From assembly GCA_025362395.1 (NCBI GenBank), contig JANYGK010000094.1:1-64000 (forward strand): a stretch of 64,000 nucleotides of DNA, written 5' to 3'. Of the stretch, positions 49,040-53,651 are shown in pieces (the stretch's first letter is position 1; each line of letters starts with the position of its first letter). The notes under the pieces were generated by a model. The model was not told where the DNA came from. It did not search any database and saw only the letters and a list, made by a program, of their open reading frames with translations. Both the position numbers and the translations under genes were made by a program. This stretch comes from Bacteroidota bacterium (GTDB taxonomy: Bacteria; Bacteroidota; Bacteroidia; B-17B0; Aurantibacillaceae).

Positions 49040-49267
49040 CAGGAAGAGATAAAAGAAACTAAAGGAAGAGAAGGACTCAAAAGATGAGATTAAAAAAGTA
49101 AGATTAAAAATCGTATTTGTGAAGATCGATCTCATACCTTTAATTTTATGCCTTTTATCGGGTAATCCTTCGCTTCAGTTTTTCCGTTCTTTTCTTTTCT
49201 TCTTCACTGCATCGTATACCCTATTTTAGGTATTTGTTTAGAAAGATTCTAAATATAGATTTGTGGC
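49040..49267. other. 228-bp intergenic region with promoter of the porin operon
   Basis: Apart from the promoter at 49233-49263, nothing else is recognisable. A pyrimidine-rich stretch (near 49180-49205) precedes it. Confidence 0.6.
49233..49263 (+). promoter_or_regulatory. Promoter of the porin/Rieske/imelysin/di-heme operon
   Basis: TTTG at 49233-49236 and TAGATTTG at 49256-49263, separated by 19 nt, a complete Bacteroidota consensus. The GTG start of the porin gene is 5 nt beyond the -7 box, so the transcript would be leaderless or nearly so. Confidence 0.75.
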
Positions 49268-50512
49268 GTGAAAAAACCATCTCCATTATTACAGAAAACA
49301 ATTTTATCAGTATTGGGCATAATTAGTGTTATGTCCTCTAATTCGCAGGTTATTACCCGCGAAGACTCTCTTAACGCAGGCTTAACGCCTAAAAACAGTC
49401 CTACTGTTATTTCCGGCTACGGGCAAGCCAAAGTGGAATATGATACGAGGCTTAAAACAGGAACCGCAAACTTAACCCGTAATGTTTTGTTTTTGGGGCA
49501 TCGTTTCTCTAATAAAATCTCTTTTTTCTCCGAATTGGAAATTGAAAACGCTAAAGTAGTTAGCGGTAGAGGTTCGGGAGAAATATCGATGGAACAGTTA
49601 TTTTTAAAATTTAACGTAAACAGGAGTACTTACTTAGTTGCGGGATTGTTTATTCCGCGTATAGGTATCATTAACGAAAATCATTTACCCACTACTTTTA
49701 ACAGTAACGACAGGCCTTTTGTAGAACAATTTGTTATTCCGTCCACATGGCGCGAGCTGGGAATTGGTGTATACGGACAAATTCCAAAAATTCCGGGTTT
49801 AAATTATTCTGCCGCTTTAATGAATGGCTTAAATTCGGGAAGTTTTAAACAGGGCACCGGTCTTAATGATGGTAAGTTTGAAGGCAGTAATGCTTCGGCA
49901 TCTAACCTTGCGGTAACCGGTGCGCTACTTTATTACGTAAACCATTTCAGGATCCAAGCATCTACTTACTATGGAGGGAGTGCGGGACTTTCTCAAAAAC
50001 AAGGCGATAGTTTAAAGCTCGACTACGGCGCATTTGGTACACCTGTATCTTTAAGCGAAGCCAATATTCAATATAACGGAACTAATGGCATCCACTTTAA
50101 AGCTTTGGGTTGTTTCGTATCTATAAAAGACGCTGATAAAATTAACCGCGCGTATGCAAACAATACACCGTCGGCCATGTATGGCTACTACGCGGAGTTA
50201 GGTTATAATTTGTTTCACCCTTTTACACGATTAAATTCCAGAAGCCTGTTATTATTTGTACGCTACGAAGCCATGAATTTAAATGCGCGATTACCTAAAA
50301 ACGGTATTGAGGATGGCCTTCAAAACAAACAATATATCATTGTAGGCCTTCATTTTCAGCCTCTTAAAGGTGTTTCTGTTAAGTTGGATTATGTACAACG
50401 TATTACCGGAGAGTACAACAAAATTTTATATGTAACCAATCCTTACGCAAGTAATACACCGTTTTATACTACTTACAATTTTATAAACCTTGGTATAGGT
50501 TACAGTTTTTAA
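49268..50512 (+). CDS. Outer-membrane porin (phosphate-selective porin O/P-like)
   Basis: A 414-residue exported beta-barrel protein. The signal peptide (LLQKTILSVLGIISVMSSNSQ) is preceded only by a GTG start at 49268, used because no ATG precedes it. The mature part alternates strands as in OprO/OprP-like porins: YGQAKVEYDTRL, FLGHRFSNKISFFSELEIENAKV, YLVAGLFIPRIGIINENHLPTTFNS (a porin-type loop), and YYAELGYNLFH ... LLLFVRYEAMNL; the end YNFINLGIGYSF has the terminal aromatic. It is the first gene of an operon with a Rieske protein, imelysin and a di-heme enzyme, so the likely cargo is a metal or metal complex. Confidence 0.9.
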   Translation: MKKPSPLLQKTILSVLGIISVMSSNSQVITREDSLNAGLTPKNSPTVISGYGQAKVEYDTRLKTGTANLTRNVLFLGHRFSNKISFFSELEIENAKVVSGRGSGEISMEQLFLKFNVNRSTYLVAGLFIPRIGIINENHLPTTFNSNDRPFVEQFVIPSTWRELGIGVYGQIPKIPGLNYSAALMNGLNSGSFKQGTGLNDGKFEGSNASASNLAVTGALLYYVNHFRIQASTYYGGSAGLSQKQGDSLKLDYGAFGTPVSLSEANIQYNGTNGIHFKALGCFVSIKDADKINRAYANNTPSAMYGYYAELGYNLFHPFTRLNSRSLLLFVRYEAMNLNARLPKNGIEDGLQNKQYIIVGLHFQPLKGVSVKLDYVQRITGEYNKILYVTNPYASNTPFYTTYNFINLGIGYSF

Positions 50513-50519
50513 TACTATA

Positions 50520-50954
50520 ATGGAACGACGCGATTTTGTAAAGACAACCTGTGTAAGCTGTATCGGCATATTAGGCGGAGGCACCTTGCTGAGCCTGCTT
50601 AATTCGTGTGCTCCGTTACCAGTACTTAAAACAAGTTCCAAAGAAAATACGCTTTTAATACCGGAAAGTTCTTTTATTGAAAAACAAACTGTACTGATCA
50701 TTAAAAACTCAAATCTGGAATTTGACATTTTACTGGTTAAGAAAAAAGATAACACATACAATGCACTTTATATGCAGTGCACGCATCAAAATCAACCTTT
50801 GGCCGCCACCAAAACAGGCTTGTTCTGTTCGGCGCACGGCAGCGCGTTTAACCTCAACGGGGAGGTAACGGTAGAGCCTGCTACACAATCCTTAAAAAAA
50901 TTTAAAACACAAACAGAAAACAACAACGTCATCATTTATTTAACCGCTTCATAA
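50520..50954 (+). CDS. Rieske [2Fe-2S] lipoprotein
   Basis: A 144-residue protein with a twin-arginine-type start (MERRDFVK), a hydrophobic stretch and a lipobox (LLSLLNSCAPL, C30), so it is exported by Tat and anchored as a lipoprotein. The Rieske cluster ligands are C87-T-H89 and C103-S-A-H106 (MQCTHQNQPL ... LFCSAHGSAFNL). It starts 7 nt after the porin stop. It has no respiratory complex neighbours (no cytochrome b or c1), so it is a free-standing electron carrier. Confidence 0.93.
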   Translation: MERRDFVKTTCVSCIGILGGGTLLSLLNSCAPLPVLKTSSKENTLLIPESSFIEKQTVLIIKNSNLEFDILLVKKKDNTYNALYMQCTHQNQPLAATKTGLFCSAHGSAFNLNGEVTVEPATQSLKKFKTQTENNNVIIYLTAS

Positions 50955-50975
50955 TTAATAATACAACCTTACCTA

Positions 50976-52052
50976 ATGAAAATATATATACTGCTTGGTT
51001 TCGCATCTATCCTTTTACTAAATGTTACAGCTTGTAAAAAACCAAAAAAAACAGATGATCCAAGTGCTGCCGACGACCAAAGTGTGGTAAGAAAAGCGGT
51101 ATTAACCGACATGGCGTCTAACGTTATTTATGCTACCTATACCGACATGGCCGCAAAATCAAACATACTCTATACAAGCCTTGTTACTTTCAGCGTTTCA
51201 TCAACGGTAAGTAATTTAACGGCGGCGCAACAAGCATGGAAGGATGTAAGAAGCTGTTGGGAGCAAGGGGAAGGATTTTTGTTTGGCCCTGTGAGTGTTG
51301 ATAACATTGACCCTCGTATTGATAGCTGGCCGATTGATTTTGCGCGCCAGGATTCCATATTGGCTTCTTCCGCTATATTTAACACTGCATACATTGATGG
51401 TTTAGAAGAATCCCTGAAAGGATTTCATCCTCTCGAATATTTAATTTTCGGTAAACATACTGATCCGACTCAATACACTCCCCGCGAAAAAGATTTAATT
51501 GTGGCTTTGGCAGATAATATAAAAACATTATGTAACACTGCCAAAGCATCATGGGATCCTGCTTTGGCTCATAACTACACATCAACCTTTGTAAATGCCG
51601 GTAATGGCGGAGTATACCCTACACAACGCGCGGCGTATGAAGAAGTAATTTCTGCTATGGCTGATATTTGTAATGAGGTAGCTAACGGAAAAATATCAGA
51701 ACCGTTTTTAAGCGGCAATGCGGCTTTAGAAGAATCTCCATTTGCGAAAAATTCGATGATCGATTTTACAAACAACATTAAAAGTGTTCAAAATATGTAT
51801 TTAGGTAAATACATTGCTGACGGTAAAGGTTTGGAAGATTTGATTAAAGCAACCAATATTGCAATGGACGGAGCCGTAAAAACGAAACTTAACAACGCTT
51901 TAACGGCTTTAGGTAATGTAACAATTCCTTTTGGCGATGCTATTACGCAACAACCTACACAACTTCAAAATTGCATAACAGCTCTCAACGATTTAAAAAC
52001 ATATTTAGAGAACGATGTAAAAACATACGTTCAATCTATTACTAATCCTTAA
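50976..52052 (+). CDS. Imelysin-family (insulin-cleaving metalloprotease-like) lipoprotein
   Basis: A 358-residue lipoprotein (lipobox LLLNVTAC, C20) with the imelysin fold: the GxHxxE motif is G149-F-H151-P-L-E154 in LKGFHPLEYLIFG, and other marks are AQQAWKDVRSCWEQGEGFLFGPV and IDPRIDSWPID. Imelysins are widely linked with iron uptake; they bind ferric or other metals rather than act as proteases in most studied cases. It starts 21 nt after the Rieske gene. The next gene is the di-heme enzyme. Confidence 0.93.
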   Translation: MKIYILLGFASILLLNVTACKKPKKTDDPSAADDQSVVRKAVLTDMASNVIYATYTDMAAKSNILYTSLVTFSVSSTVSNLTAAQQAWKDVRSCWEQGEGFLFGPVSVDNIDPRIDSWPIDFARQDSILASSAIFNTAYIDGLEESLKGFHPLEYLIFGKHTDPTQYTPREKDLIVALADNIKTLCNTAKASWDPALAHNYTSTFVNAGNGGVYPTQRAAYEEVISAMADICNEVANGKISEPFLSGNAALEESPFAKNSMIDFTNNIKSVQNMYLGKYIADGKGLEDLIKATNIAMDGAVKTKLNNALTALGNVTIPFGDAITQQPTQLQNCITALNDLKTYLENDVKTYVQSITNP

Positions 52053-52065
52053 TAATTTAAGCTTC

Positions 52066-53457
52066 ATGATTTCTTCTAAACAATTGATAAACATTACATC
52101 TTTTGCATTGGCAATTGCTTTTGTAGGTTTTCAATCATGCAGAAAACCAAAAGACGTTAAAGAAGAGGATATGAATGAATGGTACAGTGGCGGCAAGCAA
52201 ACTACGTTTGCCAGCGGTACTTCCGCTTTTAGCCAACCATTTAACGGCTTAACTCAAGTTAAAGAAAGTCTGCACGATGAAGGGGATAAGGCTTTCGGGG
52301 CAACGTTTAATAGTGATAATACACAGTTAAATCATGGCCTGGGTCCTATCTTTAATAATCAGTCTTGCGGCTTTTGCCATGTAGCAGATGGCAGAGGAAA
52401 GGCTCCGATGAGCGGCGAATTATTAAGTTCGTTATTATTACGCATAAGTATTCCGGGGCAAGGCCCGCATGGAGAACCAAACGGCGTACCCGGTTTTGGC
52501 GGGCAACTGCAACAACGCGGTATATTTGGCGTACTGGCGGAAGCCGGTGTGGATGTATCTTACACAGAAAGCATGTATCAATTTTCCGGCGGAGAACCTT
52601 ATTCTTTAAGAAAACCGGTATTTACAATTATCAATCCTTACATGGCCATGCCTGCAGGTGTTATGGTATCAGCGAGAATGGCAACACCGGTTTTTGGTTT
52701 AGGGCTATTGGAGGCCATTGATGAAAGCGCTATTTTAACTAAGGCCGATGAAAATGACAGTGACGGCGACGGCATAAGCGGTAAACCTAATTACGGATAT
52801 GATATAATGAGCAAAACCGTGAAATTAGGACGCTTTGGTTGGAAAGCGGCACAGCCAACTATTATGCAACAATCGGCCGCGGCTTATGTAGAAGACATCG
52901 GAATAACTAATTTAATTTTTCAAACAGAAAGCTGTTTAGGGCAATCGCAATACGATAATAAAAATGATGATCATGAATTAGGTGACAGCACTTTATATGC
53001 AGTGGCTTATTATATTAAAACACTAGCTGTACCCGGCAGAAGAAATGCAAATGACCCTGCAGTTAAAAACGGCAAGCAACTTTTTATTTCTATAGGCTGT
53101 GCCAAATGCCATACCCCCTCTCACACAACTGCTTCAGATATAGCATTTCCTGAATTATCGAATCAAATTATTTATCCTTATACCGATCTGTTATTACATG
53201 ATATGGGAACTGATTTGGCGGATAACAGGCCTGACTTTAAGGCAACGGGCAGTGAATGGAGAACCGCCCCTTTATGGGGTATAGGCTTAACAGAAACGGT
53301 GAACGGGCATAATAATTTTTTACATGACGGCCGAGCGCGAAGCTTAACGGAAGCTATTATGTGGCATGGAGGAGAAGGTACCGCTTCAAAAAATAATTTC
53401 GGTAATTTATCCAACGAAAACCGAGCGGCTGTTATTAAATTTTTAAGTTCCCTGTAA
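52066..53457 (+). CDS. Di-heme oxidoreductase-family lipoprotein (DUF1111)
   Basis: A 463-residue lipoprotein (lipobox LAIAFVGFQSC, C25) with two c-type heme sites: C101-x-x-C104-H105 (SCGFCHVADGRGKAPM) and C345-x-x-C348-H349 (GCAKCHTPSH). The C-terminal domain is cytochrome c peroxidase-like (LHDMGTDLADNR, LWGIGLTETVNGHNNFLHDGRARSLTEAIMWHGGE). DUF1111 di-heme proteins sit next to imelysins in many Gram-negatives, often as part of iron-uptake clusters. It starts 14 nt after the imelysin stop. A terminator at 53600-53633 closes the operon. Confidence 0.93.
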   Translation: MISSKQLINITSFALAIAFVGFQSCRKPKDVKEEDMNEWYSGGKQTTFASGTSAFSQPFNGLTQVKESLHDEGDKAFGATFNSDNTQLNHGLGPIFNNQSCGFCHVADGRGKAPMSGELLSSLLLRISIPGQGPHGEPNGVPGFGGQLQQRGIFGVLAEAGVDVSYTESMYQFSGGEPYSLRKPVFTIINPYMAMPAGVMVSARMATPVFGLGLLEAIDESAILTKADENDSDGDGISGKPNYGYDIMSKTVKLGRFGWKAAQPTIMQQSAAAYVEDIGITNLIFQTESCLGQSQYDNKNDDHELGDSTLYAVAYYIKTLAVPGRRNANDPAVKNGKQLFISIGCAKCHTPSHTTASDIAFPELSNQIIYPYTDLLLHDMGTDLADNRPDFKATGSEWRTAPLWGIGLTETVNGHNNFLHDGRARSLTEAIMWHGGEGTASKNNFGNLSNENRAAVIKFLSSL

Positions 53458-53601: not shown

Positions 53602-53633
53602 AAAAAGCTGAATAAATCTATTCAGCTTTTTTT
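53600..53633. terminator. Bidirectional terminator between the di-heme gene and pnp
   Basis: AAAAAAAGCTGAATA / TATTCAGCTTTTTTT around an AATC loop: a 15-bp stem with A and T tracts on both sides, serving both convergent genes. Confidence 0.92.
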
Positions 53634-53651
53634 AAGGAGTACAAATAGTTA

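Follow-up and report, generated by a model that had tools for sequence, protein, structure and literature searches.

Layout and distribution of the operon

The 64,000-nt stretch of Bacteroidota DNA analysed here (the window; contig JANYGK010000094.1 of assembly GCA_025362395.1, family Aurantibacillaceae) carries an operon of four genes, which encode, in this order, a porin-like barrel, a Rieske protein, an imelysin and a di-haem oxidoreductase of the DUF1111 family (DHOR). All four genes are on the + strand, separated by gaps of 7, 21 and 13 nt, with murB upstream on the same strand and pnp downstream in convergent orientation. The genes and the terminator behind them are as follows.

49268–50512, + strand: porin-like outer-membrane barrel, 414 aa, GTG start, predicted 16 strands
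50520–50954, + strand: Rieske [2Fe-2S] protein, 144 aa, PF00355 (E 9e-11), Tat-type leader, lipobox LLNSC30
50976–52052, + strand: imelysin (M75), predicted lipoprotein, 358 aa, PF09375 (E 1.5e-50), intact GxHxxE
52066–53457, + strand: DHOR (DUF1111), predicted lipoprotein, 463 aa, PF06537 (E 1.3e-108, profile positions 7–499 of 499)
about 53602–53634, no strand assigned: intrinsic terminator hairpin between the operon and pnp, minimum free energy -17.4 kcal/mol, z = -8.0

An earlier note on this DNA had claimed four closely spaced co-directional genes, a promoter ahead of them, a strong terminator behind and no decayed gene, and all of this agrees with what we find: the coordinates and gaps are the same, an exact Bacteroidota-type -33/-7 pair precedes the first gene, the terminator hairpin is strong, and the Rieske ligands, the imelysin GxHxxE motif and both CxxCH sites of DHOR are intact and conserved in relatives. 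The hairpin has a T run on one strand and an A run on the other, and an Rfam scan around the operon returned no RNA element.

Among 87 genomes of the same taxonomic order, relatives of all four genes in the window order were found in several genera, and the order DHOR-Rieske-porin was found in about 30. For a wider view we used the Rieske alignment alone to search 84,980 genomes and kept the best-scoring 80 of 140 loci, so that the proportions of gene orders among the kept loci are not a census. The Rieske frame was readable in 78 of the 80, and 74 of these 78 have porin and DHOR genes in the same cluster, two more being cut by contig ends. We distinguish type A, porin-Rieske-imelysin-DHOR as in the window, from type B, DHOR-Rieske-porin without imelysin. 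DHOR-Rieske (type B) was present in 64 of the 78 loci, with the porin next in 63, and 13 start with porin-Rieske (type A); in the remaining locus a small spurious frame lies between DHOR and Rieske. Imelysin directly follows Rieske in 11 of the 13 type A loci, and is itself followed by DHOR in nine, by a further imelysin with DHOR behind it in one, and by a contig end in one. The other type A loci are one that ends right after the Rieske gene and L114, which has no imelysin and DHOR nearby. When the window and genomes G029, G062 and G066 are counted, there are 14 complete type A loci, each in a different genome and each with DHOR beside imelysin, and because the same order is found in all of them its recurrence is beyond chance.

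Chitinophaga costaii and Chitinophaga sp. YR573 are among the type A hosts, Flavobacterium flevense is a type B host, and type B is found in Flavobacteriaceae, Chitinophagaceae, Saprospiraceae, Cyclobacteriaceae, Fulvivirgaceae, Crocinitomicaceae and Ignavibacteria. An evenly drawn sample of 148 genomes of the phylum, each at least 90% complete, contained 33 DHOR genes and 25 Rieske genes belonging to this family. All 25 Rieske genes have a DHOR gene as their neighbour or at a distance of one imelysin gene, and eight DHOR genes lack such a Rieske. The earlier note had proposed a search for conserved co-occurrence of the four families across the Bacteroidota. They do recur, in two orders, which excludes an arrangement confined to this strain, and the note had missed both that the four-gene order is less common than the other and that the common core is DHOR-Rieske-porin. 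An imelysin gene elsewhere in the genome was associated with type B (15/31 versus 11/49, p = 0.026), a difference too weak to build on.

In a midpoint-rooted DHOR tree, types A, B and an imelysin-only type C each form one group (support 98/92, 100/100 and 100/100), and A groups with C, although C is attached by a long branch that may not be reliable. Since quick trees of the Rieske and porin proteins have the same A/B split, DHOR, Rieske and porin are, judged by these trees, travelling together and inherited as a module. The make-up of type A suggests that a Rieske-porin pair was joined to the already known imelysin-DHOR pair.

The four products

Because the lipobox cysteines C30 (Rieske), C20 (imelysin) and C25 (DHOR) are invariant in the relatives compared, the operon is predicted to encode three lipoproteins and one outer-membrane barrel. 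For the barrel, neither Pfam nor NCBIfam provided a family and a sequence search of the PDB gave no match. Its fold model, a 16-strand barrel with strongly conserved residues, is about as close to general porins as to OprP/OprO (OprP TM about 0.57). The window porin had no match to Porin_O_P (PF07396), and one type B porin reached 15.8 bits against this family, below the gathering cut-off of 20.9. The earlier description of the porin as OprP-like is thus accurate for the fold and not for the family.

The Rieske protein has the fold and cluster ligands of respiratory Rieske proteins and of PDB 5cxm, and 20 relatives all retain the ligands C87/H89/C103/H106 as well as C30. Unlike the bc1/b6f proteins it carries a lipobox, and the operon encodes no cytochrome b to partner it; it scored about 26 bits against the curated bc1/b6f families, whose cut-offs are 97–250. 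In high-potential Rieske proteins a second cysteine pair forms a disulphide; this pair is absent from the window protein and from all type A loci listed, and is present in a few type B members. We also observed, in the leaders of the window protein (50520–50609) and of loci L103–L182, cysteines near positions 10–13 and near position 14 in 66 of 66 pattern-readable leaders, all within a signal peptide that is expected to be cleaved off; 26 of these leaders contain RR and the remainder RK.

The imelysin, the only one in the genome, has its motif in the form GFHPLE (H151, E154), which is invariant in five relatives together with C20, and its structure matches are 3n8u, 4ecg and 7xrx. In DHOR the two haem sites (C101/C104/H105 and C345/C348/H349) and C25 are invariant in 43 relatives. 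We found no solved full-length relative of DHOR by sequence, and its fold model is poor around the first haem region; the only significant fold match is partial, to one chain of hydrazine synthase, a di-haem subunit akin to the di-haem peroxidases of bacteria.

Promoters and putative operators

The region ahead of the window operon contains three features.

49217–49232, no strand assigned: palindrome TACC-N8-GGTA (TACCCTATTTTAGGTA), putative operator 1, abutting the -33 box
49233–49263, + strand: Bacteroidota-type promoter, TTTG at 49233–49236, 19-nt spacer, TAGATTTG at 49256–49263
49237–49253, no strand assigned: perfect palindrome TTTAGAA-AGA-TTCTAAA, putative repressor operator 2, inside the -33/-7 spacer

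As the promoter is of the Bacteroidota type, a scan for sigma-70 promoters found none at the correct site; the -33/-7 spacing of the window is also found in G077 and G079. The -7 box ends 4 nt ahead of the GTG start (49256–49270), a spacing shared with G029, and since so little room is left the porin gene is probably translated from a leaderless or nearly leaderless mRNA.

Of 16 type A operons, 9 have TACC-N8-GGTA upstream and 8 the loose form of the second palindrome, TTTAGAA-N3-TTCTAAA, where shuffled sequences give an expectation of 0.01 for each. The exact 17-mer has a single copy in the genome, and sites with one mismatch are as frequent as the control, so that its reading as a global Fur box found no support. 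One-mismatch copies, not above chance in number, lie upstream of an apparent alternative complex III cytochrome gene (L190, site 3240) and of an apparent succinate dehydrogenase operon (L188, site 3923). As judged by eye, the window palindromes are absent upstream of the porin in six Chitinophaga-type type A operons (L123, L125, L133, L139, L173 and L114), and these regions instead contain repeated GTAAAC/CGTAA-like blocks, perhaps for a different regulator. We found no adjacent regulator common to the type A loci.

The type B operons have a different palindrome, TTAG-N6-CTAA, upstream of 43 of 64 (0.48 expected); the spacing variants N5, N7 and N8 were at chance level, N7 being found in 0 of 64, and TTAG-N6-CTAA itself was found upstream of 0 of 13 type A operons, the window included. 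The motif matches the core of the DtxR/IdeR site, with the DtxR consensus TTAGGTTAGCCTAACCTAA (PMC7762939), and the region upstream of L124 contains the exact TTAGGTTAGCCTAA. Of the 61 type B loci with flank, 32 have a DtxR-family gene no more than three genes upstream, and both members that we scanned have a FeoA domain. Four of the 32 are identical islands in Allomuricauda/Muricauda (L149, L151, L152 and L154), with an identical DHOR protein and the same order of DtxR, type B, small-protein and RND genes, an arrangement that suggests a recently moved metal island. Elsewhere, type B adjoins a cluster of genes for a TonB siderophore-type receptor, imelysin, HTTM/gamma-carboxylase-like and DUF4856 proteins (L084 and L085), and the same DUF4856/imelysin/HTTM/TonB-receptor cluster lies beside an imelysin-DHOR pair in L093.

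A proposed role in metal acquisition

We propose that the operon encodes a metal-repressed outer-membrane redox module for the acquisition of metal, most likely iron, a reading to which we give somewhat better than even chances. The pore would pass small metal complexes across the outer membrane, the Rieske protein would serve as the one-electron partner of DHOR, and DHOR, on the inner side of that membrane, would interconvert Fe(II) and Fe(III); in type A, imelysin would bind the iron and hand it on towards inner-membrane importers. The palindromic operators in the promoters would keep the module repressed by metal. From the promoters and the families of the partners the link to metal appears well supported, while iron itself, the redox direction and the partners are what we infer. 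As to direction, we lean slightly towards reduction of imported Fe(III) complexes over an EfeB-like oxidation of Fe(II). We regard as less likely than not the broader possibility of a phylum-wide, undescribed outer-membrane complex whose Rieske lipoprotein and di-haem enzyme, at a dedicated pore, change the valence of iron during uptake; type A would then be the form linked to the known iron system of imelysin and DHOR.

Published data touch on this proposal. Imelysin/DUF1111 pairs have been linked to Fur-regulated iron uptake (PMC3143127). In a Bizionia argentinensis mutant of the iron regulator MliR, transcripts of the Rieske gene BZARG_RS03005 and the cytochrome c gene BZARG_RS03000 fall along with those of iron-uptake genes, and the authors took the pair for complex III of the respiratory chain plus its carrier (PMC9478572). 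The two locus numbers are consecutive, and the pair may be the module described here.

Several points weigh against iron acquisition as we propose it. The one Fur and two DtxR genes of the window genome lie away from the operon, one DtxR gene adjoining an NRAMP-like gene. The residues of the type B DtxR proteins are mixed, with Asn at the Met10/Asp8 position and Glu at the Cys102/Glu99 position, and manganese is a possible metal of this regulator; as PgMntR, the homologue from Porphyromonas, binds Mn(II) as well as Fe(II) (PMC4805248), iron and manganese are both candidates. In addition, RND pump genes lie within about 7 kb of 21 of the 64 type B loci and P-type ATPases near many, with P-type ATPase, DUF6660 and Fur-family genes beside several, which suggests metal tolerance.

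If tolerance were the function, the module would alter the redox state of excess metal in the envelope, or trap it, together with the RND pumps and P-type ATPases. However, no RND gene was found near the 13 type A loci, the pump-adjacent type B operons keep a DtxR-type operator, an element that as a rule turns genes on under metal scarcity, and the imelysin/DHOR pair is linked to uptake by the work cited above, and we therefore consider this explanation unlikely. The earlier note had suggested redox-assisted metal uptake or detoxification; a metal-linked exported redox system stands, and as between uptake and detoxification the DtxR-type operators and iron-family neighbours favour uptake and the pumps and ATPases near type B point the other way. 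Less likely again is a defence against peroxide in the envelope, in which DHOR would work as a di-haem cytochrome c peroxidase supplied by the Rieske protein and would be expressed at low iron as peroxide stress rises. The DHOR family is named as a putative peroxidase, the hydrazine synthase match fits with this, and genes of a Leptospira imelysin locus rise with H2O2 (PMC7567364), but the obligate porin and the imelysin would be left unexplained.

It is doubtful that DHOR acts as a maturation enzyme, oxidising a residue of the porin or the imelysin in the manner of MauG or MbnH with the Rieske protein carrying electrons. The di-haem family of DHOR, its place beside imelysin in every complete type A locus and the conserved residues of the barrel would suit such a role, but the lack of a solved full-length relative by sequence speaks against it. 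As for electron transfer across the outer membrane, the operon resembles the MtrCAB-type porin-cytochrome conduits in that a barrel is encoded in one operon with redox lipoproteins, and barrel, DHOR and Rieske could then form the path. Known conduits of this kind use larger barrels and multihaem cytochromes, whereas here there are only two CxxCH sites and one 2Fe-2S cluster, a Rieske protein is present and the predicted fold is that of an ordinary 16-strand porin. We rejected membership of this group, and such a conduit is very improbable.

Returning to iron acquisition, two known systems are close to the operon. The Pseudomonas aeruginosa PA4370-PA4373 type of iron-uptake operon likewise has an imelysin lipoprotein beside a DUF1111-type di-haem protein; Rieske and porin are not mentioned there, whereas here they are fixed partners, kept even in type B, where imelysin is gone. 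EfeUOB also combines an imelysin-domain protein with a haem peroxidase acting on periplasmic iron, but the present operon has no EfeU permease, its imelysin lacks the cupredoxin domain and it adds the porin and the Rieske protein. With porin, Rieske, imelysin and DHOR as its genes and murB and pnp as neighbours, the operon is not EfeUOB. The module was undescribed in the literature that we searched, in line with the novelty claimed in the earlier note; imelysin, Rieske and porin came up together in just one paper, the text search for DUF1111/DHOR was swamped by unrelated words, and searches on iron limitation gave no relevant result.

The module bears on how Bacteroidota acquire iron and on the roles of DUF1111 proteins and of lone Rieske proteins, all of which are open questions. 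It offers another reading of the published Bizionia data, namely that the Rieske/cytochrome c pair taken for complex III may be an iron-linked module. In conclusion, it ties DUF1111 proteins and lone Rieske proteins to one conserved and probably metal-regulated set.

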